From the IMG/VR virus record IMGVR_UViG_3300023108_002883, positions 1 through 35,443 of that record: 35,443 nucleotides of DNA; one strand, given 5' to 3'. Below the pieces are notes generated by a model, which made no database searches, was not told the origin of the DNA, and saw only the letters and a program-made list of their open reading frames with translations. The position numbers and the translations under genes were made by a program. How positions within the stretch are numbered: position 1 is the first letter of the stretch; every line of letters begins with the position of its first letter. This DNA is from a virus. Below, piece by piece: positions 1,551-18,328 of the stretch.

Positions 1551-2500
1551 AATATGTCTGCAAGTTGTGATATCGGATATTTACTAGGTTCTTTTTTATG
1601 TGATAGTATGTTTTCTTTGAGGCTCTTTTTTATGATGGTATACTGCGTTTGGTTGTGATCGCTTAATTTATCTAGATCTAAATCTCCATAGGATATAATG
1701 GTGTTATTATTTTTAGAGGCCAAAGAACAATTACTAATTAATTCATATTGATTATTTATGGATAAGAATATATCAGCAGAGCTATGGAGAGAGCTTAGTC
1801 TGGAATGTGAAAGATTATCTAACATTAATAAGACCTTATCTTCCTTATTGGTGTGCAGATCTGATTTGCATTGTTCGTAGTAAGATATTAGATCTTTCTT
1901 ATTTGATGTGTTTGTTTCGCAACAAATAATAAGGCATATATTGTCATTTTGATTGCAGCAATCGATAAATGTTGGTATTAATGATCTTATAGAAGCTTTG
2001 TCTCCATCATAATTGCCAATAAAATAATATTTTTTATAAGAGGAGTAGATGCCTAGATCGAGCGTGTACTTGCTGGTACTTTTGGTCGATTGTGGGTATG
2101 GTATTTTAAAAATATTAGAATTAGAGATACCTATATCCAAAAATTTCTCATAGTCGAAATCGTTAAAAACAAATATGCCATCAAATTCTTTTAGCTTATT
2201 GTGGTACTTGGTATTGATTGATAGGTCTTGTTGGGTTATAGGTATCAAATAATTTTTTGTATAGCGATTAATAGATGCTGTTTCTATTAAACAATGAGTG
2301 ATGACGGCATCAGGCATTTTGCTAAGTTCAGACATTCTCAAATAAGGAATGGTCGAAGATTTCTCATCATCATACCCAGAATAGATAGGATATGCATATG
2401 TTTGTATTTGGTTAAGTGTACATATGTCTTCCAGTATGCTTGCAGAGCAATAGCCTATAGCATTGTTGGATTGGAACGGTCCATTATAAAGTATTTTCAT
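1544..2500 (-). CDS. GT-B type glycosyltransferase-like protein
   Basis: About 318 residues. The N-terminus (MKILYNGPF followed by NNAIGYCSASI) is the usual first strand and Gly-containing loop of a GT-B glycosyltransferase. The middle has DGIFVFNDFDYEKF and KIPYPQ, which resembles the hinge and first strand of the C-terminal Rossmann half. I chose the ATG at 2500, 16 codons into the end of the upstream gene, because the domain starts there; an in-frame ATG at 2539 would add a tail with no domain signal. No clear SD precedes either start. The C-terminal catalytic Glu motif is weak. Likely role: transfer of a sugar onto a host or virion glycan together with the 4139 gene. Confidence 0.6.
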   Translation of the reverse strand: MKILYNGPFQSNNAIGYCSASILEDICTLNQIQTYAYPIYSGYDDEKSSTIPYLRMSELSKMPDAVITHCLIETASINRYTKNYLIPITQQDLSINTKYHNKLKEFDGIFVFNDFDYEKFLDIGISNSNIFKIPYPQSTKSTSKYTLDLGIYSSYKKYYFIGNYDGDKASIRSLIPTFIDCCNQNDNICLIICCETNTSNKKDLISYYEQCKSDLHTNKEDKVLLMLDNLSHSRLSSLHSSADIFLSINNQYELISNCSLASKNNNTIISYGDLDLDKLSDHNQTQYTIIKKSLKENILSHKKEPSKYPISQLADILC

Positions 2501-4139
2501 TTTTGTTTTTAAGTTTGGCGTATTGTATGAAGTCATCATTGAATCTTATGTTTTCTTTTATTACTGCAGCTAATTCGTTATTATTATTAATTAGTATATT
2601 TAATTGCTCTATGGCGCTATTTATATCATAATGATGATACGACATTCCATTTTGCTGAAAACCATAATCTATATCATTTAAAATAGTGAGAATTTTATGA
2701 GAAGAAAACATATTAATATCTCCAAGGTTATTTTTGCATATAGATATAATATTTTCTAAGTCTGCATTTTCTTTAATATTTGTGATTTTTTGCATAGATA
2801 CTGGCCGATCCCAGTGACCAGGTGCCTGCGGCTCTATTTGATCCAAATATTTTTCCCATTTCTTTGACACATCGTCCCAATTGTAAAATTTTTCTGTCAA
2901 TGTTCTTATTTCGGTTCTCTTTTTTTCTACAATAGGAGCTGGCCAGCTCATGACTGTTTTGATAGCAGAAATCAAATCGTCATTATTGGGATATACCCTA
3001 ATCGCTCTAGTTTCTAATTCTTTAAAATACGTTTGAACACCAACAGGAAAAGCTTTTAATTTTTGAATAATGTCGCACATAGCGCTGTAGTCTATAGTTG
3101 CTATGGGGATACCACAAGCTGCTGCCTCTACTTGAGGCATCCCAAAGCCTTCACATATTGCATATTGTACATAAATGTCAAAAACGTTATATATGACAGA
3201 CAATTGCTTTGATTCAATACCAGCTGAAACACTAGGAAAGACTTTATTTTTAGATAGGCATTTATCGCATATGGTGCTGGGACCAGCAAACACTCCGCAT
3301 GTAACATCATTGCACTTTTTGCACACATATGTAAAAAGCACCCTATTGGCCAATCTATGTTCTTTTAACAGCTCAGGGATGTCCCAGCCTGCATCGGGAT
3401 AGCTTGTATGTAAATATAAAAATGGTATTTGCTTAACCAGGCTATTATTTTCTAGTTCATCCAAAAGACTTCTGAAAGACTTAAACAATTCCGGTATTAG
3501 TTTTCTTTTTTGGTTTCTCATTACCGAGCCGATAATAAATGCATCGTTCGGTATATTCATTGCTCTTCTGCATTTGGTTTTGTCCTGGATTTTAAAAGTT
3601 GAAAGATCTACTCCTGGAGAAGCAGTATCAACATAGTTAATTTGTCCGCTAGATTGTTTTTCTAGTGTTTTTGCCCCCCAATCAGAATAAGTAAAAATAG
3701 CATCAGCGTCTAGGAAGGTGCTGATCCATGATTGTTGCTGTGGGGCAGAATCTACTGTCGGCATCAGAATCCAATGAAAGAACTTTCTAGCTGGAGAAAG
3801 CTCTTGATAACTAGACATCCAATAATCTCTAATGTCTATAACAACATCAGGCTTAAAGTCAATGACAACTTTATCAAATCTCCACCTACCGAACATATTG
3901 TCAGACCTAGATGAATATTCGTTATATCTAGGATCGGTTTTTTGCACAGCGTTTGCATAAATAGTCCAAGGGGTCTTTGAATCTCTTGGGTCATTTACAT
4001 TGGCATAACTTGCAAATTCCGCTATATCATATTTATTGGTATTATATAATCGGGTCAATAGTTCTTTGGCATAGATCGAAAAGCCAGAATTGAGGAAACT
4101 GGCTTCTGAGCACATCAATATTTTTAATTTTTTCATCAT
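2484..4139 (-). CDS. Family-4-like glycosyltransferase with an inserted Cys4 zinc ribbon
   Basis: A 551-residue GT-B glycosyltransferase. The N-terminal half opens with KILMCSEASFLNSGFSIYAKEL. The C-terminal half holds the retaining-GT signature near residues 325-345 (CEGFGMPQVEAAACGIPI), with the E-x7-E pair that binds the nucleotide sugar. Between the halves, about residues 271-297, a CKKC...CDKC zinc ribbon is inserted just before the donor site, which plain GT4 enzymes lack. About 200 extra residues follow the GT core. The gene starts 18 bases beyond the ssb terminator's T-tract and has no clear SD; ATG at 4136 is an equal alternative. It leads the run of sugar genes that continues to the left edge. 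Donor and acceptor are unknown. Confidence 0.82.
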   Translation of the reverse strand: MMKKLKILMCSEASFLNSGFSIYAKELLTRLYNTNKYDIAEFASYANVNDPRDSKTPWTIYANAVQKTDPRYNEYSSRSDNMFGRWRFDKVVIDFKPDVVIDIRDYWMSSYQELSPARKFFHWILMPTVDSAPQQQSWISTFLDADAIFTYSDWGAKTLEKQSSGQINYVDTASPGVDLSTFKIQDKTKCRRAMNIPNDAFIIGSVMRNQKRKLIPELFKSFRSLLDELENNSLVKQIPFLYLHTSYPDAGWDIPELLKEHRLANRVLFTYVCKKCNDVTCGVFAGPSTICDKCLSKNKVFPSVSAGIESKQLSVIYNVFDIYVQYAICEGFGMPQVEAAACGIPIATIDYSAMCDIIQKLKAFPVGVQTYFKELETRAIRVYPNNDDLISAIKTVMSWPAPIVEKKRTEIRTLTEKFYNWDDVSKKWEKYLDQIEPQAPGHWDRPVSMQKITNIKENADLENIISICKNNLGDINMFSSHKILTILNDIDYGFQQNGMSYHHYDINSAIEQLNILINNNNELAAVIKENIRFNDDFIQYAKLKNKNENTL

Positions 4140-4208: not shown

Positions 4209-4580
4209 TTAAAAGGCTACAGCTTCTTGATCTTCTGATTTCTTGTATCTAGATAGCTTTGTAAGCTTTGAAAAATTATTTACCCTTACCTTGAAACTAT
4301 TGTGCTTAACTCCGTCTTTTTCCCAGGAATCGTTTCTTAAGGAACCCTCCACCATGACCAGATCACCCTTGGCAAAAGACTCTCCAATAATTTCTGCGCC
4401 AGTATCCCAGGCTTCACAGTTGATAAAAGACGTAACCTTGTCTCTATCCCCATTAGCCTTTGTGTATTCTCTTGATGTAGCAACAGTAAAGTTGACTACA
4501 GCAGTCTCTTTTCCTCCAGTATTAACTCGTCGCATTTCTGGATCTCTAGCTAGGTTTCCTCTAAGAATTACAAGATTCAT
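4209..4580 (-). CDS. ssb: Single-stranded DNA-binding protein (SSB)
   Basis: A 123-residue bacterial-type SSB that coats single-stranded DNA at the replication fork and during recombination. It is a single OB fold: MNLVILRGNLARDPEMR at the N-terminus, then VVNFTVATSREY and FINCEAWD, then GDLVMVEGSLRNDSW with the expected spacing. The C-terminus ends in DQEAVAF, a short acidic tail with a terminal Phe like the partner-binding tip of bacterial SSBs (usually DDDIPF). The start has a good SD (AAGGAG, six bases before ATG). A consensus promoter upstream and a hairpin terminator downstream make it a one-gene transcription unit, consistent with a need for high expression. Confidence 0.95.
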   Translation of the reverse strand: MNLVILRGNLARDPEMRRVNTGGKETAVVNFTVATSREYTKANGDRDKVTSFINCEAWDTGAEIIGESFAKGDLVMVEGSLRNDSWEKDGVKHNSFKVRVNNFSKLTKLSRYKKSEDQEAVAF

Positions 4581-4630: not shown

Positions 4631-4658
4631 ATTATAGCAGAACTGTTCCGTTTGTCAA
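4631..4658 (-). promoter_or_regulatory. Consensus sigma-70 promoter of ssb
   Basis: On the minus strand TTGACA (4658-4653) and TATAAT (4636-4631) are separated by 16 bases; both hexamers match consensus exactly. The -35 is extended as TTGACAAAC, shared with the promoters at 11953-11981 and 21892-21920. The -35 overlaps the end of the polymerase C-half gene. The start codon of ssb is about 51 bases downstream, leaving a normal leader with an SD. Confidence 0.85.
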
Positions 4659-6277
4659 GACTGCGGCTCAAAACATTTTTCTACTATGAGGCTATCTTTG
4701 TTTTTAGACTTTTTCCCAGTAAAAACTAACACATTGCCTTCAAAAATATGTGTTTTGTATTGTTCCCAAACGTCAGGAAATAATATGATTGAGTCAAGTA
4801 TTCCGTATTGGTCCTCTCCAGTTACAAAAGCCATCTCTGATCCTGGATTCTTACCTGTTTTTGTTTTGGTTATATTAATAGATGATATTTCGGCAGCCAT
4901 AATGATATCAGACTTATATGTGGTTTTAAAATCTTTGCAGTTAGTATTGGTTGTGTCTATGTCGTAAGAGTCTAATTTTGAGCATGTGATGGCTGTACCC
5001 AGTAAAGAATTTTCGGAATCAGACAACCATTCTATTTTATCTACCATAGAATACGGCGGATTGTCTATGGTTTTTATAAGATTGGCAATGATTTCTTTTC
5101 TATTCTTATTTATTTTTTCCTGCAAGAGTCCGACTAATATATTTTTTAAAGACTGATTATCTTTTTTAATATAAGTATCACATTTTTCTATTTCTTTTTT
5201 TGTTAAGGAAGAAAATATCTCATATTCAAATAACATTTCTGTTCTTGTTTTTTTGTAGAAGTCCAAGGAGCCACAACATATTAAGGCTTTGGTTGCAGTA
5301 CTATTGATATTACATAGTATCATAGATAACATTTGGTACCAATTAATATTATTGATATCTATTTGGTCTTTTTCTATTATTTGTTGCATCTTTTGAAAAA
5401 CAGAATTGCCTACACCCTTAATATCTGTTAGTCCAAAAAATATCTTGCCAAACTTGATAGAAAACAGCTGATTCATATGTCTTATATCTGGTGTTTGGAT
5501 AATAATATCCATTTCGTTGGCGTTTCTAACGAGCTCTTTTATTTCTTGTTGTGGATCTATTTTGTCTTTTGCAAATTTCAAATAAGAAGCAAAAAATATT
5601 CTTGGAAAATGAGCCTTGGTATATGCAGATAAGTAGGCATTCATCGCGTATGATATTGCATGGCTTTTATTGAAAGAATATCTCTGACTTTTTTCTATCC
5701 ATCCAAAAATCTCTTCTGCCGTATCTTTATCTACGGTTTTTTGTTTTAGTGCGCCTTCAATAAAAGACTTTTTGACCTTAGCCATCAGGTCAGCCTTTTT
5801 CTTTCCAATAGCCTTTCTTAAAACGTCTGCTTCTTTTAGGTCAAAGCCAGAAACAACCCTTGCTATTTCCATAGCCTGCTCCTGATATATCATTTCTCCA
5901 TAACTTTTTTCAAGAGGACTTTTTAAAGATGGATGATAATAATCTACTGTTTCTTGTCCATTTTTTTTATCAATATAATGATTACTTACGCTTTTACCGT
6001 CTCTATAGGCCTCAAGGCATCCCGGCCTTAAAATACTAATCAGGCCCGCTAAATGCTCTATATTTCTTGGTTTTAGCTTTTTGGACATACTTTGACCAAG
6101 TCTTGACTCTAACTGAAAACATCCTTTAGTATTGCCAGAGGATATCAAGTCCCAAGTTTTTTCACATTCTAGATTAATTTTTTCTAATCTAGGATCAAAT
6201 TCAATCTTAGGAAAGTCGCCACTATTGTCCAATACTCTAAATTTGCATCCACAATCGAATGTAAAAATTTCAGCCAT
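4655..6277 (-). CDS. DNA polymerase III alpha subunit, C-terminal half (fingers to OB fold)
   Basis: 540 residues matching the second half of a bacterial C-family replicase. It opens with a short Cys motif (FDCGCKF, residues 6-12), then the start of the fingers (TWDLISSGNTKGCFQLES, about 42-59), LRPGCLEAYRDG, the MIYQEQAMEIARV motif near 129-141, and the RYSFNKSHAISYA motif near 200 (basic, primer/dNTP side). The C-terminus has an OB-fold pattern (MAAEISSI...MAFVTGEDQYG...ILFP). It lacks the PHP domain and all three palm aspartates, which are encoded at 7152-9023. The two products must associate to make a polymerase. It starts 9 bases after the exonuclease stop, without an evident SD nearby. 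Split genes, not a frameshift: each half has its own start and stop and two genes lie between. Confidence 0.9.
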   Translation of the reverse strand: MAEIFTFDCGCKFRVLDNSGDFPKIEFDPRLEKINLECEKTWDLISSGNTKGCFQLESRLGQSMSKKLKPRNIEHLAGLISILRPGCLEAYRDGKSVSNHYIDKKNGQETVDYYHPSLKSPLEKSYGEMIYQEQAMEIARVVSGFDLKEADVLRKAIGKKKADLMAKVKKSFIEGALKQKTVDKDTAEEIFGWIEKSQRYSFNKSHAISYAMNAYLSAYTKAHFPRIFFASYLKFAKDKIDPQQEIKELVRNANEMDIIIQTPDIRHMNQLFSIKFGKIFFGLTDIKGVGNSVFQKMQQIIEKDQIDINNINWYQMLSMILCNINSTATKALICCGSLDFYKKTRTEMLFEYEIFSSLTKKEIEKCDTYIKKDNQSLKNILVGLLQEKINKNRKEIIANLIKTIDNPPYSMVDKIEWLSDSENSLLGTAITCSKLDSYDIDTTNTNCKDFKTTYKSDIIMAAEISSINITKTKTGKNPGSEMAFVTGEDQYGILDSIILFPDVWEQYKTHIFEGNVLVFTGKKSKNKDSLIVEKCFEPQS

Positions 6278-6286
6278 TGTATATTT

Positions 6287-6973
6287 CTATTTAAAAGAAT
6301 CCTTAAATTTAATCTTTGGTGACATGCTTCTAAAAAGTTTCATAAATCTAATTAGAATTTCTGCTGTGTCCTGTACATCTTTAAGAGCGTCATGAGCATT
6401 TTCTTTAGATAATCCTAGATAATCTCTAAGATTGTCTAATGTATAATTTTTAAGTTCACTATTTCCTTCGAACCAATAAAATATAACATTCATAACATCT
6501 AAAACATCTCTAGGAAAAAACAGATCGGTTTTATTTTCCTTGTTTGTGTTTTTATATCTCTGGCTCAATCTGTTGATGATTGGCAAATCGAACCTGTTAA
6601 TATTGTATCCGGCAGCAATCGGGGCACTAAAACAGCTTTTTTTAGTTGACCTACTGTGATACATTTGTAGATAATTAACAAACATTTTCCATGCCTGCTC
6701 TTGCTTTTGACTAGATTTCCAGTCCTTCAAAATTTGAGCTTTGCTAACTCCTCTAACCTTAGAGTGAAAGTCTAAAACATCAGAGTCATCATATGTATAA
6801 TCCTCATTTTCTTCTAGAGCAGATGGTCGCAGAGATATATTAAATTCTGAATCTGGTACTATCTCTAATTTTATTGGGTCAACAATAACAGCTGCTATTT
6901 GTACCGGACTGCATACATCTGGATTGCAGCCATCTGTCTCTAGATCGAAAACACATATCTTATTCCTATTAAT
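6287..6973 (-). CDS. DEDDh 3'-5' proofreading exonuclease (DnaQ/epsilon-like), AUU start
   Basis: About 228 residues. All three Exo motifs are visible: VFDLETDG (Exo I, D10 and E12), NINRFDLP (Exo II, D129) and NAHDALKD (Exo III, H194 and D199). It is therefore probably an active DEDDh proofreading or processing nuclease for the split replicase whose halves flank it. In this frame there is a stop (TGA) two codons before an ATT at 6973, and no ATG, GTG or TTG until a TTG at 6730, which would remove Exo I. The ATT sits 6 bases after a perfect GGAGGTGA, so AUU initiation is the best reading. The start overlaps the stop of the 59-aa gene (ATTAA). A later TTG start giving a truncated product is the only alternative. 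Confidence 0.87.
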   Translation of the reverse strand: MNRNKICVFDLETDGCNPDVCSPVQIAAVIVDPIKLEIVPDSEFNISLRPSALEENEDYTYDDSDVLDFHSKVRGVSKAQILKDWKSSQKQEQAWKMFVNYLQMYHSRSTKKSCFSAPIAAGYNINRFDLPIINRLSQRYKNTNKENKTDLFFPRDVLDVMNVIFYWFEGNSELKNYTLDNLRDYLGLSKENAHDALKDVQDTAEILIRFMKLFRSMSPKIKFKDSFK

Positions 6974-7148
6974 TTTTCACCTCCACTTTGATATCTGGCT
7001 GAATAAATGTCCTATCATTGGCATTGCCAACCACATGACAATTAACGCTTCTGCAACAACTAACTTTGACGGTATTAACTTTTACATATGTCTTATTATT
7101 TAAGTCAAATTGTTCGCCAATAGCGACGTCTTTAAAAGATTTTTGCAT
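6969..7148 (-). CDS. Small 59-aa protein between the polymerase halves
   Basis: A short gene with ATG at 7148 preceded by GGAG eight bases upstream and three bases after the stop of the polymerase N-half. The product has KDVAIGEQFDLNNKTYVKV, then VSCCRSVNC and a C-terminal FIQPDIKVEV. The pattern of a short beta-rich domain with a paired Cys (SCCRS) resembles a widespread family of tiny phage proteins of unknown role. Its place between the polymerase N half and the exonuclease suggests a replisome-linked job, for instance a structural adaptor, but nothing in the sequence proves that. Its last codons contain the SD of the exonuclease, so translating it may regulate exonuclease synthesis. Confidence 0.75.
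   Translation of the reverse strand: MQKSFKDVAIGEQFDLNNKTYVKVNTVKVSCCRSVNCHVVGNANDRTFIQPDIKVEVKN
6977..6984 (-). promoter_or_regulatory. Strong ribosome binding site that fixes the AUU start of the exonuclease
   Basis: GGAGGTGA on the minus strand matches eight bases of the anti-SD of 16S rRNA. GGAGG ends 6 bases before ATT at 6973. It lies inside the last codons of the 59-aa gene, so the two are probably coupled in translation. Confidence 0.8.
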
Positions 7149-7151
7149 AAT

Positions 7152-9023
7152 TTATTCTCCACTATGTAGTAATTGTGAAATAGACATAACCTTATCGAGC
7201 ATAGCCACCCCCAGAATATCAAATTTAATAATACCAATAGATTCCAAGTCTTGCATTTCCATGCCAGCTATTGTTGTCTTGTTTTTTGTATCATAAATCA
7301 TGGGACAGATATTATTTAGGTTGTGACTACTAATAACTACACCGGCAGCATGTTTTGACTGATTTGATTTGGTGCCCTCTAATCTAATAGCTTGCTCAAA
7401 TCTTTTGGCAAGGGGACCCTTCAGTGTATTGTCTTTTTCATCAATATAGCACCATTCTTTTAGCTTATCGGCGTTATTCTCTAGAGCCCATCTAATAATA
7501 GAGGCTTCGCCACCATCTTCTTTCATTTCTTGTAATTCATCGGCTATTTTTGCTTCGTCTGGAATAAATTTTGTAATTCTGTTCATTTCATCAAAACTAA
7601 TATTTCCATATACCCTTAATACTTCTTTAAGGGCGCCTCTGCCTTTCATGGTGTTAAAAGTAATCATCTGAGACACTTTTGATTCACCATATCTATTTCT
7701 AATATACGATATGATTTCTTCTCTTTTATTGATTGGTACATCCACATCTATATCTGGCATAGAGATTCTGTCTTTAGTATTTCTTCCAGAATTATAAAAT
7801 CTTTCAAATATAAGATCATATTTTATTGGGTCTATAGATGTTATGCCTATTAAATAGGACACTAAGCACCCAGCGGCACTGCCTCTGCCTGGACCAGCTA
7901 ACCATCCACGAGATTTAATATAGTTAACAATATCCGCAACAATTAAGAAATAACTAGAAAGGTCAGCTCCCTGTAAAACTTCTAATTCTTTTTTGATGCG
8001 TTCTACATAAATATTATGGTCTTCTTTTGGTATATGATTTGCAATTTTTTCCTGCCATCCATTTCTACATAATTGCCTTAGATATTCATCTGGATTCTGA
8101 TTATCTGGACACTGAAATGGAGGCAATAATGGTTTGTGTAAAATATCATAATCTTCACACATGCTGTCTATATAAAGTGTATTCTCTACCTCTTCCTGGG
8201 TATGTATTTCGTTAATCTCTTTTGGATCAAGTATATAATACTTGTCAGACTTAAAAAAACATTCAAATGGTACAGATTCTTCGTTGACAATTTTTTTATT
8301 AATATTGGATAGCGTAGTTTTTATATTATTGCACAACAATATTCTTTGATCTATGGCATCTTCTTGCTCTGCATAGTGTGCATCGGGTGTACAGATAATT
8401 TTGGTTTTTGTTAGCTTTCCCAGGCCTCTAACAATGTCTGTAAGCTCTTTTTGTCTGGGCATATTTTGTTGATCCATTAGTTGTGACTCAAGGAAAAAGT
8501 TATCACTTCCAAAAATTTCTTTCATCTCCGCAATAAAATCCACACATTTGCCTTTGTAGTCTGTGGGATTTTGTTCAACTATATCGGCAATATATGATCC
8601 CATATGCCCACAAAATGCAATTAAATTATTATGTGATACTATATCTTTTAGTTTACAGATAGACAATCTTGGTTTTTTATAGTAATTTTCAGGATCGTTA
8701 GATTTAGAAACGATTTGTATTAAATTTTTCCAACCTGTTAGATTTTTGGCCAGTACTATAAAATGTGTTAGGTCAATATTTTCTTTAGATTTTATACTAG
8801 AATCATCGAACGATAAATATAATTCACATCCAAGTATGGGCTTGATATTTTTAGCTTTTAGTGCGGTATGTATTTGTACAGCACCGGATATGGATCCATG
8901 GTCTGTAATGGCACAACTCGGTACTCCTATTTTATTGCACCTATTGGCTATCTGTTCAGGTCTTGACAAACCATCCAATAAAGAATAGTGGCTATGCACA
9001 TGCAAAGGTATATAGTTTTTCAT
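7152..9023 (-). CDS. DNA polymerase III alpha subunit, N-terminal half (PHP domain and palm)
   Basis: 623 residues. Residues 1-260 are a PHP domain that keeps its metal-site pattern: HVH at 8-10, TDHG near 40, CELYL near 66, CGHMGS and PDAHY near 220. Then comes the palm: GPGRGSAAG near 377 (triphosphate-binding motif), the two catalytic aspartates in PDIDVDVP near 425, and the third in IKFDILGV near 601. It stops about 20 residues later, before the fingers. A full-length bacterial DnaE continues for about 500 more residues; here they are in the gene at 4655-6277. It overlaps the nuclease before it by ATGA at 9023-9020. The phage thus carries its own replicative polymerase in two polypeptides. 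Confidence 0.93.
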   Translation of the reverse strand: MKNYIPLHVHSHYSLLDGLSRPEQIANRCNKIGVPSCAITDHGSISGAVQIHTALKAKNIKPILGCELYLSFDDSSIKSKENIDLTHFIVLAKNLTGWKNLIQIVSKSNDPENYYKKPRLSICKLKDIVSHNNLIAFCGHMGSYIADIVEQNPTDYKGKCVDFIAEMKEIFGSDNFFLESQLMDQQNMPRQKELTDIVRGLGKLTKTKIICTPDAHYAEQEDAIDQRILLCNNIKTTLSNINKKIVNEESVPFECFFKSDKYYILDPKEINEIHTQEEVENTLYIDSMCEDYDILHKPLLPPFQCPDNQNPDEYLRQLCRNGWQEKIANHIPKEDHNIYVERIKKELEVLQGADLSSYFLIVADIVNYIKSRGWLAGPGRGSAAGCLVSYLIGITSIDPIKYDLIFERFYNSGRNTKDRISMPDIDVDVPINKREEIISYIRNRYGESKVSQMITFNTMKGRGALKEVLRVYGNISFDEMNRITKFIPDEAKIADELQEMKEDGGEASIIRWALENNADKLKEWCYIDEKDNTLKGPLAKRFEQAIRLEGTKSNQSKHAAGVVISSHNLNNICPMIYDTKNKTTIAGMEMQDLESIGIIKFDILGVAMLDKVMSISQLLHSGE

Positions 9024-10066
9024 TCTGTACTTCCTGGGGCTTTGTAATGACCTACATTATACCCTGGCATCGTGTATTCGTCAACCACATTTTTCATGCC
9101 TTTGAGCTGTATGTCGTGGGCTACCTGTTCACACATTGTCATCTCATTACCAGGAGAACAAATCTGCCCATCCCTATATTCTAGTATCGGCATCACATGA
9201 TCTATGTCTTTAAAAGAATTTTTCCCATAATGGCATAATTTTGTACATTTCCAGGTTTTAGATAGTTTTGGCCTTTTGGTTTGTTTGATATGATGAAATT
9301 TTTGTCTCAATAAATCTTCTGTTTTCTGTAAATCAGATTTGTCAAAACTCATACTAAAAGGTCCACCATCATTGATAAAAAAAATAGTTACTATACAATT
9401 ATCTATTTCTGGGTATAATTTTTGTACAGCATAATAGTATATCATTAATTGAGGGTCTTTTTCTAGTTTTTCTTGTGTCTTTTCTTGTCCTGTGGCCCAG
9501 TCTAGTCTTCTTCCTGTTTTCCAGTCCACAATTTCTAAGGTGTTTGAGGATGGTCTAGTGATTAAGTCAATTGTGCCTTTGATGGCCAATTTGCCCTTAA
9601 GTGTTTCTCCATTAGATAATTTATATTCATATTCTGCCCATGGCTTATCTATAGTGATATCGAATCTCTGTTCCGGATACAGTATTTCTCTATTTCTTGG
9701 GTCAAACATACCATCGGCATATTCAATGGCTTTATATGTCCACTTTCTACAGTCTCTGAAGTCAGTTGTTGTCCATTGATGGTGCGTGAAACTAGAAGTA
9801 TAATATTGATATACTCTTTCTATTATATCATCTAGATTATAATTATAGGCATTAATTTTCCCTAAAATATCATCTTCAAAAGTCTGTTCCCCCTTTTGCA
9901 TCGTAAACTTTACGAAAGCGAGTATCTCCAGGGCCTTATGCACTATGGTGCCTTTATCTGCCTTCTTATTAGACGGAGATCTATACCCCATGACATAATC
10001 AAAGAAGTATTGTTGTTCGCACATGTTGTGCGTATTGTAACTAGAACTACGAAAATATGTAATAAT
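9020..10066 (-). CDS. RecB/Cas4-family PD-(D/E)XK nuclease, probable AUU start
   Basis: About 348 residues. The C-terminal two thirds show the RecB-nuclease order: KGTIDLI (catalytic Asp), LEIVDWKTG (Asp-x-Lys), QLMIYYYAV (Q-x3-Y motif). The N-terminal family motif, a Ser-rich start then Cys and YFFDYV, is complete only if translation begins before the ATG at 10024. The frame continues upstream through YFRSSSYNTHN to ATT/ATA codons after a stop, with no ATG/GTG/TTG. ATT at 10066 overlaps the kinase stop as TAATT, the same geometry as the TAATG junctions elsewhere in the window. CTKLC near 275 with the N-terminal Cys could bind an Fe-S cluster or zinc, as in AddB and Cas4. Likely role: end processing in replication or recombination. 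Confidence 0.88.
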   Translation of the reverse strand: MITYFRSSSYNTHNMCEQQYFFDYVMGYRSPSNKKADKGTIVHKALEILAFVKFTMQKGEQTFEDDILGKINAYNYNLDDIIERVYQYYTSSFTHHQWTTTDFRDCRKWTYKAIEYADGMFDPRNREILYPEQRFDITIDKPWAEYEYKLSNGETLKGKLAIKGTIDLITRPSSNTLEIVDWKTGRRLDWATGQEKTQEKLEKDPQLMIYYYAVQKLYPEIDNCIVTIFFINDGGPFSMSFDKSDLQKTEDLLRQKFHHIKQTKRPKLSKTWKCTKLCHYGKNSFKDIDHVMPILEYRDGQICSPGNEMTMCEQVAHDIQLKGMKNVVDEYTMPGYNVGHYKAPGSTE

Positions 10067-10803
10067 TATGATAGCACCTCTTTAAGAATTTTATCTACTT
10101 CTAATGATTGGTTATAAATATCTATTTCTCTATTATCTATGATGTAATCGAATTTATTCCAGTCATACTTGTCTTCGTCTAAAATTTGCTCACTAATATG
10201 AGATGAATTATATATATTTCTAGTTAATCTGACTACAACACCATTGTTTTTCTGAATACATTCTACCTCGTTTGGAAATCTACAATCTGTAATGATAGCT
10301 ATTTGAGGTTGATCTCTGTGTATTTTGGCTATCATAGCATCAGTCCATACGCTTTGCTTGATAGATCTAAGCATATCTGTGCCAATATACTGCATGACTT
10401 CTCTCGCTGTCATTTGTGTCTTTTTATCGGGCCAATAACAATCGACTAATTCATTTTTTTTATCATCAGCACCATAGCATTGATCATGTGTTAGGCCTAA
10501 TATGTTCATGCAAATATCTTGTTTCAGAGGGTCTGCAAAGCTATATAGTTTGATATATGGACCTAAGGTGTTAAGACATTTTGTAATAATATAGTCATTG
10601 CTATTAGTTGTACAGGGATTGAAGAGACCTGCATATTCTTTTTTGTTATATAGGTCCGATACTACTATTTCGCCATTTTCGTTAAGATTTATCTTTTTTG
10701 CTATGTTCAGATTTCCCAAATACTTAGAGTATATAAAATTAGCACAGGTATTTTTGCCAGATTGTTTTTTTCCAGAAAATGCTATAATTTTTGTATTATT
10801 CAT
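10066..10803 (-). CDS. Deoxynucleoside monophosphate kinase
   Basis: 245 residues of the P-loop phage dNMP kinase type, which phosphorylates dNMPs to feed dNTP synthesis. The P-loop is AFSGKKQSGKNTCANF at about 8-23. The middle has LYSFADPLKQDI, TAREVMQYIGTDMLR (the lid and substrate region) and AIITDCRFPNEVE near 165-180, which is the family's second acidic and Arg motif. The C-terminus IDNREIDIYNQSLE is also typical. It begins 8 bases inside the end of the primase gene. It partners the dCMP deaminase and ribonucleotide reductase further upstream. Confidence 0.87.
   Translation of the reverse strand: MNNTKIIAFSGKKQSGKNTCANFIYSKYLGNLNIAKKINLNENGEIVVSDLYNKKEYAGLFNPCTTNSNDYIITKCLNTLGPYIKLYSFADPLKQDICMNILGLTHDQCYGADDKKNELVDCYWPDKKTQMTAREVMQYIGTDMLRSIKQSVWTDAMIAKIHRDQPQIAIITDCRFPNEVECIQKNNGVVVRLTRNIYNSSHISEQILDEDKYDWNKFDYIIDNREIDIYNQSLEVDKILKEVLS
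10075..10080 (-). promoter_or_regulatory. Ribosome binding site of the RecB-like nuclease
   Basis: GAGGTG on the minus strand, inside the last codons of the kinase gene. The core GAGG ends 10 bases before ATT at 10066 and 7 bases before ATA at 10069. It supports a non-canonical start upstream of the ATG at 10024, which has no SD of its own. Confidence 0.6.
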
Positions 10804-11950
10804 GAATCAGTTGGGGTTTGATGGTTTGTTGAACTTGTTCGATTGTCATGCTGGCTATATCGGGATATTGTATTTTTATCTCGTGTACATTATATGTTCT
10901 TTCACATTTTTTTCTAATCATAGCCGCAGCTTTTCTTCCGGCTTCGTCATTGTCCATTATAGTAAATATCGTCATAGCCCCAGAAGAATCTATAATCATT
11001 TTTTGAATATCAGCTAATGACGAACCGAATATGGCTACACTATTATGTATACCTGCTTCTTCCAGTCTCCATACATTGCCTGGACTTTCTACTAAAATAA
11101 TACTATGACTATTCTTTATATGGTCTTTGGCAAACCAAAAATTATATAAGTGATTCTGTGTTTTAAAGCCACTATTATGTTTCCATTTAGAATATAGATA
11201 TTTCTTGTCTTCTGATGGACAGCTACTTGAATTATGATAGCAATTACATCTATCACATCTGTCATTTGTGGCCCTTCCCGTACAACCAACCATAAATTTA
11301 TGGTTTTGATCATATACTGGAACAACAGCCCTATTGGTCATCGGCTTATTTGCATTTTGACAATCTCCAATATCGTATTTCTCTAGAATCTCTTGGCTGA
11401 ATCCTCTATTTAGAAAATAGGCAGAAGGGATGTTAAGAGAGTTGACAATTTGGCTTCTTGGTAATTTATTTATATCGTCTTTGCGTATATTTTGTACATA
11501 CCTAACAGCATTTACGAATGTGGTCTTCTCTTTTTGTTTATTGGATACTTTAATGTCTTTTAATTTATTGCCAAGAAAGTTTTCTACAAAAGATATGGTT
11601 TCTTTGAATGTGCAAATTTTGTCCTGGTTATTGTACCATTCATATTTCATATTCGATAAACAGCCTCTCACAAAACCAAGTATTGATGGCTTAAAGATTT
11701 CTTCGCAATTATGAGTCCTGCATTTCCAGTTGCCTCGATAGCTATCTCCTACATAGTAAAGATTAAGAGCGGATGGATTATCTCCTTGATGTATAGGACA
11801 ATTCATTGCTATCATCTTATCAGATAGTTTATACTCAGAAATATTTAATATTTCCAATAGTTCTTCTATATTATCGCAAAGGCTGTCAGATAAAATCTTA
11901 AGCTTATGCTGATCATACGAATTCGATTTTGTTGCTTTCATTGTTATCAT
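10796..11950 (-). CDS. DnaG-type DNA primase
   Basis: About 384 residues. An N-terminal CHC2-like zinc finger (NCPIHQGDNPSALN then WKCRTHNCEE, residues 49-80) is followed by a middle domain with a second Cys cluster (DRCDRCNCYHNSSSCPSE, near 235). A Toprim domain comes last: SIILVESPGNVWRLEEAG with the catalytic Glu, then IFTIMDNDEAGRKAA with the DxD-type pair. It makes RNA primers for the phage fork. Starts at TTG 11953, ATG 11950 and ATG 11941 are in frame; none has a good SD. Because a consensus -10 box ends at 11953, a transcript from that promoter would begin near 11946, so ATG at 11941 would then be the start. It overlaps the helicase gene. Confidence 0.9.
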   Translation of the reverse strand: MITMKATKSNSYDQHKLKILSDSLCDNIEELLEILNISEYKLSDKMIAMNCPIHQGDNPSALNLYYVGDSYRGNWKCRTHNCEEIFKPSILGFVRGCLSNMKYEWYNNQDKICTFKETISFVENFLGNKLKDIKVSNKQKEKTTFVNAVRYVQNIRKDDINKLPRSQIVNSLNIPSAYFLNRGFSQEILEKYDIGDCQNANKPMTNRAVVPVYDQNHKFMVGCTGRATNDRCDRCNCYHNSSSCPSEDKKYLYSKWKHNSGFKTQNHLYNFWFAKDHIKNSHSIILVESPGNVWRLEEAGIHNSVAIFGSSLADIQKMIIDSSGAMTIFTIMDNDEAGRKAAAMIRKKCERTYNVHEIKIQYPDIASMTIEQVQQTIKPQLIHE

Positions 11951-13379
11951 CAATTATAAACCCATCCTGCCTGTTTGTCAAACCTCCACCAGCCATTAAT
12001 TCTAATCGTGTCTGTCCTTCTGTGATTTTAGCACACCAGCCCTTCATGTGACAATTTATATAGTCATTATCATCCAATCCTCCTCCGTGTCTGCTAATAA
12101 CAGGCAATAATTTTCTATTGCCATTATCTGGTCCATCTTCTGCAATTTCCTCGTCTGTCTTTCTTTTAAAGATGGTAAAATTACTACATAGCCATATAAT
12201 TCTATCAGAACCACTAGCAGTATCTGTACTTTCTTTCGTAATTCCGTCTCTATTTAATTGAACAAAAGCTACGATAGGTATCCCATATTGGCATGCAAAA
12301 TTATGTAATGAAGTCATCATAAATCCCAAAACCTGATATTCTTTAAGGTCTTGACTCATGCCAGCACTATCCATTAATTTTAGATAATCATAAAACACAA
12401 CACAGTCTTTCGCCTTGCCGTCTGGCAGCAAACCCACTTCTTTGACTATCCATCTTCTCATAATAGCTAACTGCTCTTCGAATGGTTTGCCCGCTATGCT
12501 TTTATGATAAAAGGGAATTTCAGACATTTTTTTAGAGCTGTCATAGATTTTTTTCTTTAAGTTTGGTGAATCTGCAAATTTTCCTGTTTCTATGCTTTGC
12601 ATATCTATTTCGGTGGACATTGCCAAAAGTCTATGGATATGGTCCTCTTTAGTCATTTCGGTATCCATATTAAGTACTGGTATATTTAATTCATTGGCGA
12701 TATAATATCCCATATTATCAGATAGTAATGTTTTGCCGGTTTTGGGTCTGGCGGCAATAACGTTGATAGTATTTTTTCTAAGTCCTCCCCCTATAGCTTT
12801 ATCAAACACAGGAAAACCAGTAGAGATACCAATTTGCTCTACCTTGTTATTTTCCAGATAATCTATATATCCTTCAATATCTTTTCCTATTGCTTCCGGG
12901 CCAGATTCATTATCATTAAGCTTAGAAGAGAAATCAAATATAGAATCTTCAGCAATACCAAGGATGGAGGTAATTGTCTCATTACCACTAATATCCAAGA
13001 TCTTATCTTGGGTCTGTTTTAAGTTGGCATGAAGATCTCTCGCTATTTCTAGTTTTTTTATCTTCGCAGCAAATTTTCTCGCATTAATCTTTTCTACAGG
13101 AAAATCCTTGATTGCTTTGATGTGTTGGGCTTCTGTTTTATTGTTAATTAAGTGGGAGAGTCCAAGTTCGTGAGATGCAGAAAATACAGAAGCGATATCT
13201 ATAGATGAACAAGCCCCTTGTTCACAAACATGCTTTAAGCATTGATACAAATATTGATTACTATCAACAGTAAATGTTGTTTCTTTTATAATATCCGACA
13301 CCTCAAGGTACACACTGTCCCCATATTGCATGATTGAGCTTAGAACAGCTCTTTCTGCAGCCGTATCGCACAGTATCAT
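11913..13379 (-). CDS. dnaB: Replicative DNA helicase, DnaB family
   Basis: 488 residues. The N-terminal DnaB domain begins MILCDTAAERAVLSSI. The RecA-like motor starts near 190 (GISTGFPVFDKAIGGGL) with Walker A AARPKTGKT near 210, the LNMDTEMTKEDHIHRL motif, a Walker B region (VVFYDYLKLMD) and the Q/N switch IPIVAFVQLNRDG. It unwinds DNA at the fork and should work with the primase encoded next. The start was set at ATG 13379, which overlaps the previous stop as TAATG and has AAAGGGG eight bases upstream; the longer frame from 13400 adds seven residues with no support. The last 70 bases carry the primase promoter. Confidence 0.94.
   Translation of the reverse strand: MILCDTAAERAVLSSIMQYGDSVYLEVSDIIKETTFTVDSNQYLYQCLKHVCEQGACSSIDIASVFSASHELGLSHLINNKTEAQHIKAIKDFPVEKINARKFAAKIKKLEIARDLHANLKQTQDKILDISGNETITSILGIAEDSIFDFSSKLNDNESGPEAIGKDIEGYIDYLENNKVEQIGISTGFPVFDKAIGGGLRKNTINVIAARPKTGKTLLSDNMGYYIANELNIPVLNMDTEMTKEDHIHRLLAMSTEIDMQSIETGKFADSPNLKKKIYDSSKKMSEIPFYHKSIAGKPFEEQLAIMRRWIVKEVGLLPDGKAKDCVVFYDYLKLMDSAGMSQDLKEYQVLGFMMTSLHNFACQYGIPIVAFVQLNRDGITKESTDTASGSDRIIWLCSNFTIFKRKTDEEIAEDGPDNGNRKLLPVISRHGGGLDDNDYINCHMKGWCAKITEGQTRLELMAGGGLTNRQDGFIIDDNNESNKIEFV
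11953..11981 (-). promoter_or_regulatory. Consensus sigma-70 promoter at the primase start, inside dnaB
   Basis: TTGACA (11981-11976) and TATAAT (11958-11953) on the minus strand, 17 bases apart, both exact. The -35 reads TTGACAAAC as in two other promoters here. The -10 is immediately before the first possible primase start, so the expected transcription start falls at about 11946 and the message would have almost no leader. Confidence 0.8.
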
Positions 13380-13744
13380 TACGAAGACCCCTTTGAACAA
13401 CAGTTATTGCATTTATATCGGTTTGCACTATCTACTAATAGTCTTTTGCTGACTGTTTCTTTTTTTCCACAGATGCAGCACTGCACATCTATTATAGTGC
13501 TTGGTCTAGATCTGGCTGTTGGTGGATATGAAGAAAGTTTTTTATCTATTGCACTATCTGATCTATGCATCTGTGCCTCTGGCATGCTATCAAATAAATT
13601 GGGTCTTGTAGAAGTTTGTTTCGCATCTTTATTTGTGATAGGATTAGTAATAGTATCGGATTCTGTTTTTTGCTCAGATTGATCTATTACATTAATCATC
13701 GCCATCATCAATTCTTTTAATTTTTGTGTATCTATGTCAGCCAT
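13379..13744 (-). CDS. Small zinc-ribbon protein upstream of the helicase
   Basis: 121 residues. A short helical N-terminus (QKLKELMMAMINVI) is followed by about 50 low-complexity Ser/Thr/Asp-rich residues. The C-terminus is a treble-clef or zinc-ribbon pattern, CCICGKKETVS then YKCNNCC (about residues 87-116). Such proteins usually bind nucleic acid or a protein partner. It is joined to the helicase gene by TAATG and may be a fork accessory factor or helicase loader, but that is inference from position. I do not recognise a named family. Confidence 0.75.
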   Translation of the reverse strand: MADIDTQKLKELMMAMINVIDQSEQKTESDTITNPITNKDAKQTSTRPNLFDSMPEAQMHRSDSAIDKKLSSYPPTARSRPSTIIDVQCCICGKKETVSKRLLVDSANRYKCNNCCSKGSS

Positions 13745-14222: not shown

Positions 14223-14622
14223 TGGTCAGTCTTTCTTTCCAATCTTCTAATCCTTCATTATACGGAAGTTCTATATATCTAATATTATTTTTTTCACACC
14301 AGTATTTTTTATCTCTGTCTCTTTTTTTGTGTTTCATAAACCCCAACGAGGTTTGGTGGTAGAATTGTACAAATTTATAATGTTGTTCGCCATGAACCTC
14401 TATGCATGTTTCATTAAGTGGTAGATAAAAATCTAAAAACAATGTTTCATTTTTTCTAACTGGTATTGGAACCTCTTCTAAGACTTGCAAAGTAGGAAAT
14501 ATTTCTTTTATTAAAGATCTTGCCGTCAGATGTAGAGAAGATTTATTTATCGCTCTACCTTTGGCTATATGGCCCTTGAGAGACCACCTCTGAACATTAT
14601 CATCCAAATCAACAATATTCAT
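14215..14622 (-). CDS. PD-(D/E)XK endonuclease-like protein (Vsr/DUF559-like)
   Basis: 135 residues. The core reads FLDFYLPLNETCIEVHGEQH, giving the Asp and then the Glu-Val-His of the Vsr/DUF559 group of PD-(D/E)XK nucleases. It continues with KKRDRDKKYWCEKNNIRYIELPYNE, the basic helix and following strand of that fold. The N-terminal 60 residues lack a recognised domain. It is wedged between recA and the possible mediator gene, overlapping both by a few bases, so a recombination, repair or resolution role is plausible. A free-standing mobile endonuclease is possible but the tight operon packing argues against recent insertion. Confidence 0.8.
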   Translation of the reverse strand: MNIVDLDDNVQRWSLKGHIAKGRAINKSSLHLTARSLIKEIFPTLQVLEEVPIPVRKNETLFLDFYLPLNETCIEVHGEQHYKFVQFYHQTSLGFMKHKKRDRDKKYWCEKNNIRYIELPYNEGLEDWKERLTNE

Positions 14623-15638
14623 TCGCTGATTCCCATCATTTCTTTAACAGAAGCCCACAGACTTTCATATATGTCTGGGTTTTGACTAATAAAATCCCTT
14701 GCCTTTTCGGCTCCCTGAAACTTTGGAGTATCTTTCACATTTGTAAATGTATACCAAGCTCCGCCCTTATCTATTAATCCAAGATCTGTGGCTAAATTAA
14801 ATAGCTCCATCTCTTTATCTACGCCGACGCCATAGCGAATATAGCTTGTTATTTTAGCTCCAGGCGGACCTAATGCAGAGCATATTACTTGCCACTCAAT
14901 TGTTTGTCCTATCTGGGTTTCTTCTTTGCCGACATTCCACGCTTTAAAATACGTAGCTTTTAATTTGACATCTGTCTGATAGGCTATTGCCTGCCCTGAT
15001 TTTTCTTTCCATTCACTACTGCCGTATCCTGGGTTGCCCATCAGATGGGTGATACCTATAACTATATTCTTATTAACGGGAATAACATTAGCAACTTTTC
15101 TGCAAAATTTTGCTAACAGTTTTGCACCATCGGCTCTTTGCATCTTACTCATGTCTGATGTGATTTCAGATTCTGTACATAACGCTGAATAAGAATCGAT
15201 AATTAAGACAGAACCAGGTACTTCATTGATAATTCTTTCAGCGATTTGAAGATATTCCTCCGCATGTAATATCTTACCTGTTTTTGATCCTATGATATGA
15301 AATCTGTCTAAATTAAGTCCATTGATACCAGACAAGTCTCTTTTTTTAAGTCTACCTTCTATGTTTAGATAGTACACTTCTCTGCCGTCAGCAAAATCTC
15401 CGTATGCGTATTTTTCCTGTTGTGCTAATGCCGCTATGTACAAAGAAGTAGTAGTCTTGCCGCATTTGGGCTGACCGGTAAAAATCACAAAACTACCTTC
15501 TGGAATTCCTCCATTAAGAGCGATATCTAACGATGGGCTTACCGAAATATTCAAAACCTTCTTGTCAATAACAGAATTACCAGAAAGTATAATGTCGTCA
15601 CCAAAATTTTTCTTAATATCAGTCTTGATACTCATCAT
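14619..15638 (-). CDS. RecA/UvsX-type recombinase
   Basis: 339 residues with the RecA core: NISVSPSLDIALNGGIPEGS at 30-49, Walker A FTGQPKCGKTTTS near 53-65, Walker B SVLIIDSYSALC near 141-152, and a ThrHis switch region GITHLMGNPGYGSS (Q/N residue replaced by His as in some phage recombinases). It drives strand exchange for recombination-dependent replication and repair, with the SSB and the neighbouring nucleases. The start ATG at 15638 follows AAGGA by 5-6 bases; a second ATG follows immediately. Bacterial RecA has a longer C-terminal domain. It overlaps the preceding gene. Confidence 0.92.
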   Translation of the reverse strand: MMSIKTDIKKNFGDDIILSGNSVIDKKVLNISVSPSLDIALNGGIPEGSFVIFTGQPKCGKTTTSLYIAALAQQEKYAYGDFADGREVYYLNIEGRLKKRDLSGINGLNLDRFHIIGSKTGKILHAEEYLQIAERIINEVPGSVLIIDSYSALCTESEITSDMSKMQRADGAKLLAKFCRKVANVIPVNKNIVIGITHLMGNPGYGSSEWKEKSGQAIAYQTDVKLKATYFKAWNVGKEETQIGQTIEWQVICSALGPPGAKITSYIRYGVGVDKEMELFNLATDLGLIDKGGAWYTFTNVKDTPKFQGAEKARDFISQNPDIYESLWASVKEMMGISE

Positions 15639-17368: not shown

Positions 17369-17757
17369 TATGCTTTTAAGTCCCTATTTATATCTGCTAG
17401 AACTTTTTCGTTACCGGTCTTTAGAAATCCTATATATTTATTGAATATGTATTGATTGACCTGTTTCATTGTATGCGATTTGCTATTTTTGCAAATTCTG
17501 TCTACAAACGTTGCTTTGGGACATGATTTTGATAATGGATTATAGGCTTGTCGTTGACAATTTATGGCTATATAATATTTATATCCAATATTATCAACCC
17601 CCAAAGAACTTGCGGCCGTCATGCTTCTGGGCTTTTTCTCACAAATACTTTGAGCATATATATGTGTACTGTCACTGCCTACTGTAGGGAATCCACCACT
17701 ATCAAAACCGTCTTCTTTTCCTGTGATAGTATAGTATTTATTTTCTTTCATATTCAT
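17368..17757 (-). CDS. Unknown protein, member of a duplicated family (copy 2)
   Basis: 129 residues and the longer-range paralogue of the protein at 16358-16735: KYYTITGKEDG at the N-terminus, YKYYIAINCQRQAYNP in the middle and FNKYIGFLKTGNEKVLADINRDL at the C-terminus align with the other copy end to end. It has extra cysteines in the middle (SICEKK, SKSCPKATFVDRICK). Starts at ATG 17757 or 17751 are equally likely; both lie inside the end of the HNH gene. No catalytic motif. The two copies flank a zinc-ribbon gene and an unknown gene, so the four could form one module. Confidence 0.7.
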   Translation of the reverse strand: MNMKENKYYTITGKEDGFDSGGFPTVGSDSTHIYAQSICEKKPRSMTAASSLGVDNIGYKYYIAINCQRQAYNPLSKSCPKATFVDRICKNSKSHTMKQVNQYIFNKYIGFLKTGNEKVLADINRDLKA

Positions 17758-18328
17758 AATGCTTGTTAATGTATTTAGTCCATATCTCCATCGCTTCTGA
17801 TCTTATATTAGTCAATTCGTCGTACCATGGCAAGTATTTGTATGAAAATTTTGGCATATGAGGCTCATTGAGCAGTGACATGTTTGCCTCTTTTGGTGTT
17901 TTGTTGGCCTTTTTAGCATTGCATTTTATACAAGCTGTTGTGACATTGGTCCAGCTTGTTGCCTTTTTATGATCAGAAAATCTAGATTTGGGTATAATGT
18001 GATCATATGTCAATTGTGATCTATTTAAATGCTTGCCACAATATTGACACATAAAATTATCTCTAGTAAATAAATTTTTTCTAGACAATTTAATATTAAC
18101 AGAGCCAAAGCATTTTAGATATTGTGTTGTTCTAGCTACTGCAGGAACTTTAATCTTTTTATTGTTGGCACATAGAATATAGTCGTCATAGTGTTCTAAG
18201 ACATGAATACCATATCTTATATCATTATGGTATTTTATATTCCAGAGCACTGCTCTTCTCCAATCTATTATTCTTATTGGTGTAAAATCACAATTTAATA
18301 ATAGGCATTTATTATGATCTATTGTCAT
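17738..18328 (-). CDS. HNH endonuclease
   Basis: 196 residues. The C-terminal half is an HNH (beta-beta-alpha metal) nuclease with two CxxC zinc pairs: FMCQYCGKHLN, then LTYDHIIPKSRF (first catalytic His after Asp), TSWTNVTTACIKCNAKKAN (Asn and second CxxC) and KTPKEANM. The N-terminal half (LLLNCDFTPIRIIDWRRAV) is the partner domain found in bacterial and phage HNH proteins of this type, including RIID-W near residue 20. It cuts DNA; targets are not predictable. Tight 17-base overlap with phoH shows it is an integrated operon member rather than a recent homing insertion. Confidence 0.9.
   Translation of the reverse strand: MTIDHNKCLLLNCDFTPIRIIDWRRAVLWNIKYHNDIRYGIHVLEHYDDYILCANNKKIKVPAVARTTQYLKCFGSVNIKLSRKNLFTRDNFMCQYCGKHLNRSQLTYDHIIPKSRFSDHKKATSWTNVTTACIKCNAKKANKTPKEANMSLLNEPHMPKFSYKYLPWYDELTNIRSEAMEIWTKYINKHYEYERK

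Follow-up and report, generated by a model that had tools for sequence, protein, structure and literature searches.

The DNA examined here, IMG/VR record IMGVR_UViG_3300023108_002883 from position 1 to 35,443 (below, the window: that whole stretch of 35,443 nucleotides), comes from a group of uncultured bacterial viruses and encodes a C-family DNA polymerase, related to the alpha subunit of DNA polymerase III (Pol III), in two genes. We conclude, with a probability of about 0.85, that this is the replicative polymerase of the phage, made as two proteins that are cut between palm and fingers and work together non-covalently. Four genes form a head-to-tail series on the minus strand and are translated in the order alpha-N, S, DEDDh exonuclease, alpha-C:

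Positions 7152 to 9023, minus strand: alpha-N, the PHP, palm, and thumb half of the polymerase, 623 residues (open reading frame [ORF] and Pfam).
Positions 6969 to 7148, minus strand: small protein S, 59 residues, predicted SH3-like β barrel, phrog_2183 (unknown function) (ORF, profile, and model).
Positions 6980 to 6984, minus strand: GGAGG, Shine-Dalgarno-like, for the exonuclease gene (read from the sequence; 6 nucleotides before ATT).
Positions 6287 to 6973, minus strand: DEDDh exonuclease (epsilon-like proofreader), 228 residues, inferred ATT start (RNase_T; phrog_192, DNA polymerase exonuclease subunit).
Positions 4655 to 6277, minus strand: alpha-C, the fingers, HhH, and OB half, 540 residues (ORF, Pfam, profile alignment, and model).
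Positions 6197 to 6277, minus strand: N-terminal extension of alpha-C with an FDCGCKF motif, at the position of the palm-fingers linker of single-chain enzymes (alignment and model).

The two polymerase halves and the genes between them

Both halves are separate ORFs with the 59-residue gene between them, as an initial annotation of this DNA had described. Pfam recognized PHP (PF02811, 7.3e-35) and DNA_pol3_alpha (PF07733, 6.9e-76) in alpha-N, and DNA_pol3_finger (PF17657, 5.6e-44) and HHH_6 (PF14579, 4.1e-08) in alpha-C. The third palm aspartate, D602 (KFDILG), lies 21 residues ahead of the alpha-N end, close to the earlier estimate of about 20, and alpha-C opens with MAEIFTFDCGCKF, followed by the fingers. 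The alpha-C profile aligns to residues 586 to 899 of Escherichia coli alpha and, weakly (independent E value 0.019; 2.5e-05 in another search), to residues 950 to 1055; thus, the cut falls in the palm/fingers linker, and the part after OB is missing. No Pfam OB match was obtained for this last region, in which the alpha-C model has strands (residues 457 to 535). The best match of alpha-N in the phage collection is 33% identical.

The residues expected of a working enzyme are conserved. A 29-row alignment of alpha-N (A4), all of whose rows were picked for an intact start, has invariant H8, H10, D17, H42, E67, H87, H140, D214, and H216, which we take to be the likely PHP metal positions, as well as invariant palm residues D424, D426, and D602. 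C8, G9, C10, F12, and C37 of alpha-C are invariant across 39 rows, and its N-terminal extension is modelled by AlphaFold2 as a β hairpin (predicted local distance difference test [pLDDT] score, ∼84); our guess is that the invariant CxC and Cys37 form a metal site stabilizing the junction. The AlphaFold2 model of alpha-C as a whole (mean pLDDT, 83.5) retrieves Pol III alpha structures, the best at E 1.6e-21.

The exonuclease gene matches RNase_T (1.6e-10) and phrog_192, and D10, E12, D129, H194, and D199 are invariant in a 27-row alignment; the DEDDh catalytic set is therefore complete, as the initial annotation had it, but its start needed refinement. No ATG, GTG, or TTG is present at the expected start, and the ORF list holds only a truncated TTG form (6287 to 6730). 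The full frame opens at an ATT (6971 to 6973), which GGAGG precedes by 6 nucleotides and which stands at precisely the site of the ATG of most relatives; the apparent ATT start is common to the window and its near relatives L005 to L008. In the window, as in many relatives, the stop codon of S and the start of the exonuclease gene overlap.

S matches phrog_2183 (7.4e-07), has invariant F14, C31, C32, and V55 in a 35-row alignment, and is modelled as a small SH3-like β barrel (pLDDT, 94). Its best solved likeness is domain I of EF-P (Z, 5.2), with other SH3-like barrels at modest Z, a likeness of models that we read as one of fold only; S has no Pfam match and no PDB sequence match at E 1. Structural look-alikes (template modelling [TM] score to the model, up to 0.84) are small, mostly uncharacterized proteins of many phages, although only 1 of 875 structure matches lies below E 0.001. 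Because look-alikes occur in many phages and S matches phrog_2183, S is probably not specific to this polymerase. In the enzyme it may be a structural subunit, a regulator, or no more than a passenger.

As for how the enzyme would be put together, the halves could fold separately and dock non-covalently at what was once the palm-fingers interface, aided by translation that is overlapping and coupled on a single mRNA, and the exonuclease would serve as the epsilon subunit for proofreading. The PHP domain, to which epsilon binds in E. coli, sits here in alpha-N.

The surrounding genes on the same strand are as follows:

Positions 4209 to 4580, minus strand: SSB gene, just downstream of alpha-C (PF00436, 6.4e-26).
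Positions 9020 to 10024, minus strand: PD-(D/E)XK nuclease gene, just upstream, with a 4-nucleotide overlap with the alpha-N start (PF12705, 1.3e-17).
Positions 10796 to 11953, minus strand: Toprim primase-like gene (domain and phrog matches).
Positions 11913 to 13400, minus strand: DnaB-like replicative helicase (domain and phrog matches).

A deoxynucleoside monophosphate kinase gene is also among the upstream neighbors, with the nuclease, primase, and helicase genes. Elsewhere, the window carries genes for a glycosyltransferase (2484 to 4139), RecA/UvsX (14619 to 15638), an HNH endonuclease (17738 to 18328), PhoH (18312 to 19049), a ribonucleotide reductase-like protein (19071 to 21269; matches to the B12-dependent class are weak), a sulfotransferase (22697 to 23344), and a GDP-mannose dehydratase (27064 to 28047).

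Conservation of the split and the alternatives to a two-chain enzyme

Scans of viral contigs with alpha-C, the alpha-C profile, and a distant member gave 232, 437, and 242 relatives, respectively; the best 80 of each were kept, and three genome-bin contigs were added. The resulting 241 loci reduce to 118 distinct alpha-C DNA sequences, whose proteins are 56 to 100% identical to that of the window; L165 (28%, Holosporales) was left out of this count. The bins belong to three different groups (L162, Alphaproteobacteria; L163, Flavobacteriales; L164, Chitinophagia), so we claim no host. Alignments use a subset of 41 representatives: 39 rows for alpha-C (without L059 and L060), 35 for S, 27 for the exonuclease, and 29 for alpha-N, from which L009, L011, L019, L021, L029, L033, L038, L041, L044, L058, L063, and L080 were omitted for a disrupted start or an insertion.

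The order alpha-N, S, exonuclease, alpha-C is kept in all 118 distinct loci. None is fused: the joining of the halves in one frame, named in the initial annotation as one result that would overturn it, was looked for and found in 0 of 118. A split conserved in every locus means that the break is not an error, and a sequencing or assembly artifact is ruled out. S was placed between alpha-N and the exonuclease by tblastn in 109 of 118 loci, and in all 118 by a profile built from the same group. Comparison of the window with L005, L007, and L012 gave nonsynonymous divergence (dN) of 0.11 to 0.24 for alpha-N, the exonuclease, and alpha-C, with the proportion of synonymous differences (pS) at 0.67 to 0.83, near saturation; S is constrained too (dN/dS, 0.08 to 0.23). 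The co-translational assembly proposed earlier is consistent with gene order, with the overlap of S and exonuclease, and with exonuclease and alpha-C genes that overlap or abut in 81 loci and lie ≤12 nucleotides apart in 107; three loci have a 1- to 3.6-kb insertion at this second junction.

The invariance of the catalytic residues of palm, PHP, and exonuclease in the aligned rows supports the two-chain replicase, but several observations weigh against it. The alpha-C model is poor at residues 84 to 110, with a predicted TM score of 0.68, and its overlay on Pol III alpha gives TM scores of 0.35 to 0.52 at a root mean square deviation of ∼10 Å or more; as a model, it is recognizable as to family but does not reproduce the domain arrangement. 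In 15 of 118 loci, tblastn found alpha-N in more than one piece, owing to insertions or, in L163, to an apparent frame break (at the alpha-N start), and the L182 exonuclease also has an apparent frame break. The survey holds the best 80 matches per scan, so fused relatives at a greater distance may have escaped it. The large related records (118 to 231 kb) may be fragments, with another polymerase or a clamp lying outside them. Finally, phage DnaE genes are split elsewhere too, which shows that a split can be tolerated in itself and may be without function.

The best-surviving alternative is itself compatible with a working heterodimer: the split would be a neutral accident fixed once in an ancestor, with the exonuclease and S as insertions that hold nothing together. 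In Mycobacterium phage MrMiyagi, whose polymerase is split in the same way, the halves have no gene between them, Rossellomorea phage phiT1 has a different, 49-residue protein there, and S look-alikes occur in many phages. Against this, S and the exonuclease stay between the halves in all 118 loci, and their order is kept even where other DNA has been inserted nearby (L034, L170, L197, L203, and L209). We consider a neutral origin a real but minority possibility. The same findings bear on the complex foreseen in the initial annotation: its two non-covalently joined chains remain the most likely reading, and the suggested organizing role of the exonuclease and S would be a possibility, to be set against the wide spread of S look-alikes and the MrMiyagi split with nothing between.

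It is unlikely that the split polymerase is an accessory or repair enzyme in a phage that copies its DNA with the host enzyme. Such a role would fit the negative result for a bacterial beta clamp (PF00712 matched none of 10 large related records, with controls positive) and an alpha-C that stops soon after the OB region, without the C-terminal domain of E. coli alpha, which binds tau. Yet the catalytic residues are invariant and the genes lie among those for helicase, primase, and SSB; moreover, PolA was found in 0 of 13 large related records and PolB (PF00136) in 0 of 10, with controls positive for both, so the split alpha is the only replicase found there. Large relatives gave no gp45 match either, a negative of no weight because its control was silent as well.

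Rejoining of the halves into one alpha chain, after translation or at the RNA level (an undetected intein, trans-splicing, or an intron over 6278 to 7151), has a precedent in the cyanobacteria, which rejoin a split DnaE by an intein, and an echo in split-intein-like pieces seen by eye inside alpha-N of L033 and L034, but it is highly improbable here, since Pfam matched no intein family in either half (in accord with the initial annotation), Rfam gave no intron match at the gathering threshold in the window and six loci (a scan that likewise named nothing in insertion-bearing loci), and the DNA between the halves codes for two conserved proteins (low dN) in all 118 loci. On these grounds we rejected an intein, an intron, and trans-splicing at the junction. 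A genuine palm/fingers split with no intein and no sign of an intron makes two chains working non-covalently the most likely arrangement.

The operons of some relatives carry other insertions. In L033 and L034, the intein-like pieces interrupt alpha-N at GPGRG|SAAG (IntN-like after GPGRG, IntC-like before SAAG), and a separate endonuclease-like ORF lies between them, so alpha-N itself is in two genes; tblastn matches of alpha-N in L173 and L212 break at residues 381/382, the same residue. Nine loci (L021, L041 to L043, L046 to L049, and L162) have an insertion of ∼1.1 kb at alpha-N residues ∼419 to 427, close to the catalytic SMPDID motif; inspection by eye of L021 and L041 showed an endonuclease-like ORF there in a different frame, and Rfam gave no match. 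It is probably an intron or another mobile element. Two other phage polymerases, those of phi13:1 and MT835494 (described below), are split near the same residue. L021 also has an in-frame intein-like insertion (by eye) between DWK and TGRRLD of the PD-(D/E)XK nuclease gene upstream of alpha-N. Further insertions lie between alpha-N and S in L034, with an endonuclease-like ORF (by eye), in the exonuclease/alpha-C gap in L197, L203, and L209, and inside alpha-C in L212; in L170 and L171 the alpha-N/S gap is ∼0.7 kb.

A candidate ribosome-bypass element in relatives

While aligning alpha-N, we noticed a stop codon near its start in some relatives; the first cases were found without a search pattern. 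Of the 118 distinct loci, 25 have the alpha-N start interrupted in this way (23 by regular expression, plus L058 and L064, outside the range searched) and 90 have it intact (L241 by eye); in 3 it is absent from the locus. Alpha-N of the window is without the element. The element reads M-D/G-V/M-x-x-x-Y-x-P-L-H-V-H-S and then TAA or TAG, directly after the PHP motif HxHS, and alpha-N resumes as H/M-Y/F-S-L-L-D-G 8 to 12 nucleotides past the HVHS codons, the frame depending on the gap length. When viral contigs were scanned for the pattern, 74 contigs with 48 unique elements came up, 47 of these elements at an alpha-N start; the L279 element, a chance pattern match outside alpha-N, was left out of the count. 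Examples are as follows:

L019, 5252; L038, 5232; L044, 5239; L080, 3418; L228, 2109; and contigs L244 to L317 except L279: candidate bypass element at the alpha-N start.

Among 43 parsed unique elements, the stop is TAA in 25 and TAG in 18 (the search pattern itself required TA). Two stems are predicted. In the first, the start-codon region pairs with the nine nucleotides that end in the HVH codons. Pairing (Watson-Crick or G-U) is complete over the nine positions in 38 of 42 unique elements, and the other 4 have one mismatch, at the stem end (L248 is absent from this stem-pairing set but present in the codon-matching set discussed below). Compensatory change is seen, ATGGACGTG occurring with CACGTCCAT and ATGGACATG with CATGTCCAT, in a stem much of which was fixed by the scan pattern. 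In the second, the gap pairs with the codons after it, e.g., AAGTGAAT/ATTCACTT, AGCGAAT/ATTCGCT, and TAGAGAAT/ATTCTCTA. This stem averages 6.94 pairs, whereas shuffling the downstream arms among the 35 distinct combinations gives 5.72 ± 0.16 (a mean as high was reached in 0 of 1,000 permutations; relatedness uncorrected). It has 5 pairs or less in 4 of the 35. Eight elements fold 2.3 to 4.95 standard deviations below shuffles, compared with z values of 0.05 and 0.81 for the element-free starts of the window and L012. In three of the eight (L019, L228, and L080), the minimum-energy fold swaps the first hairpin for a longer second one; thus, the two predicted hairpins may compete.

We consider this element a candidate for programmed ribosome bypassing, judging from its sequence. 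The ribosome would leave at the TCY codon and resume at the H/M codon, and would thereby make the same protein as an uninterrupted gene, a match that follows from how the gap was defined. A Shine-Dalgarno-like motif precedes the ATG in 73 of 73 contigs (loose pattern), and the gap lengths are spread over the three frames (30, 28, and 15 of the 73). Re-initiation was rejected as a general cause because the gaps span all three frames and because 34 of 73 parsed contigs offer neither ATG nor GTG in frame from the stop to LDG; re-initiation at TTG (LDG), or at ATG or GTG in the other 39, may occur but would lose the PHP HxH. The last codon of the gap always has a middle C and is identical to the take-off codon in 12 of 43 elements, another Ser codon in 16, and some other codon (ACT, GCT, or GCC) in 15.

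In T4 gene 60, according to the part of the account available (PMC5009743), the stop follows the take-off codon, with 5′ and take-off stem-loops and a matched landing codon; the element of the relatives shares this logic, its stop likewise lying directly after the take-off codon. The imperfect codon matching in 15 of 43 elements and the re-initiation codons in 39 of 73 contigs argue against a strict analogy with gene 60. The portions of the bypassing literature available to us held no polymerase case that we recognized. It is about an even bet, in our judgment, that alpha is assembled at two levels: throughout the group by non-covalent joining of two halves that are co-translated with the proofreader and, in about one-fifth of distinct loci, by a ribosome hop within alpha-N over a stop and an 8- to 12-nucleotide gap, independent of frame, as in T4 gene 60. 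If so, the element would add a well-defined programmed bypassing system, and its natural variants, which number in the dozens, could be used to work out how it operates. Of the two results, the architecture fixed across the group is solid and moderately surprising, and the element may be the more novel.

Comparison with known polymerases

Single-chain DnaE proteins such as E. coli DnaE and gp55 of Streptomyces phage Rana have the same domain order, PHP-palm-thumb-fingers-HhH-OB, but in one chain rather than the two ORFs seen in all 118 distinct loci; the further domain that E. coli alpha has after OB is also missing here. In PolC, the exonuclease is an insertion into the PHP domain and so part of the polymerase chain, whereas the exonuclease here is a separate gene. 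Cyanobacterial DnaE is likewise encoded in two genes, but its break lies at another position and its halves are rejoined by trans-splicing through a split intein, of which we found none in either half.

The initial annotation left open whether homologs would be fused or split at the same place, and outside this group the answer is mixed. Two distantly related cultured phages share the junction and show that the cut can be tolerated; others are single chain or broken elsewhere. In MrMiyagi (L319), gp83 matches to A4 position 619 and gp84 from A1 position 33, and the two genes adjoin with a 4-nucleotide overlap. In phiT1 (L325), gp20-gp19-gp18 have the same palm|fingers junction with the 49-residue ORF (gp19) between, but no exonuclease lies between the halves and gp19 does not match the S profile; phiT1 falls outside the window's clade, on a long branch of unsure placement. 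Breaks elsewhere include those near PHP|palm in Microbacterium phage Rachella (56/57), Rhodococcus phage Trina (gp101/102), and Bacillus phage vB_BpsS-140 (two unannotated ORFs, perhaps a frameshift), and those inside the palm in Cellulophaga phage phi13:1 (gp38/39) and the fecal record MT835494, which has an exonuclease ORF just downstream. Distant phage C-family polymerases are thus split at several places (L318 to L321, L325, L333, and L337), and the palm|fingers cut recurs. Of 21 phage records, chosen rather than sampled and in some cases because their listing showed two features, 13 encode a single chain, 5 have two annotated genes, and 3 have two unannotated ORFs.

In a tree of 30 rows, 20 of them split and 10 single, the window's clade has 100/100 support and contains no single-chain rows. 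The split state needs four changes, three of them forced by starred branches, on a tree whose long branches (including phiT1) and uneven composition make the deeper placements unsure.

A split C-family polymerase as such is not unprecedented. In group 2.2 jumbo phages, according to the available portions of Iyer et al. (2021, PMC7824862), a minimal Pol III alpha without the other alpha domains is split into two proteins whose genes are distantly located, and a family B polymerase is present; here, in contrast to what those portions describe, PHP is present, the genes adjoin, and PF00136 was found in none of 10 related records. In the open-licence literature, as far as its text was available, neither this clade nor an exonuclease gene lying between alpha halves was described. 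As far as searched, two features are new: a large clade in which every locus seen is split, and the position of the exonuclease gene between the two halves. Here a C-family replicase is kept in two chains, cut inside the catalytic core, by an entire group of large phages, which suggests that the palm-fingers interface can become a subunit interface; and since the same cut is found in at least two further phage lineages, this boundary can be tested in the laboratory as a natural breakpoint for splitting Pol III.

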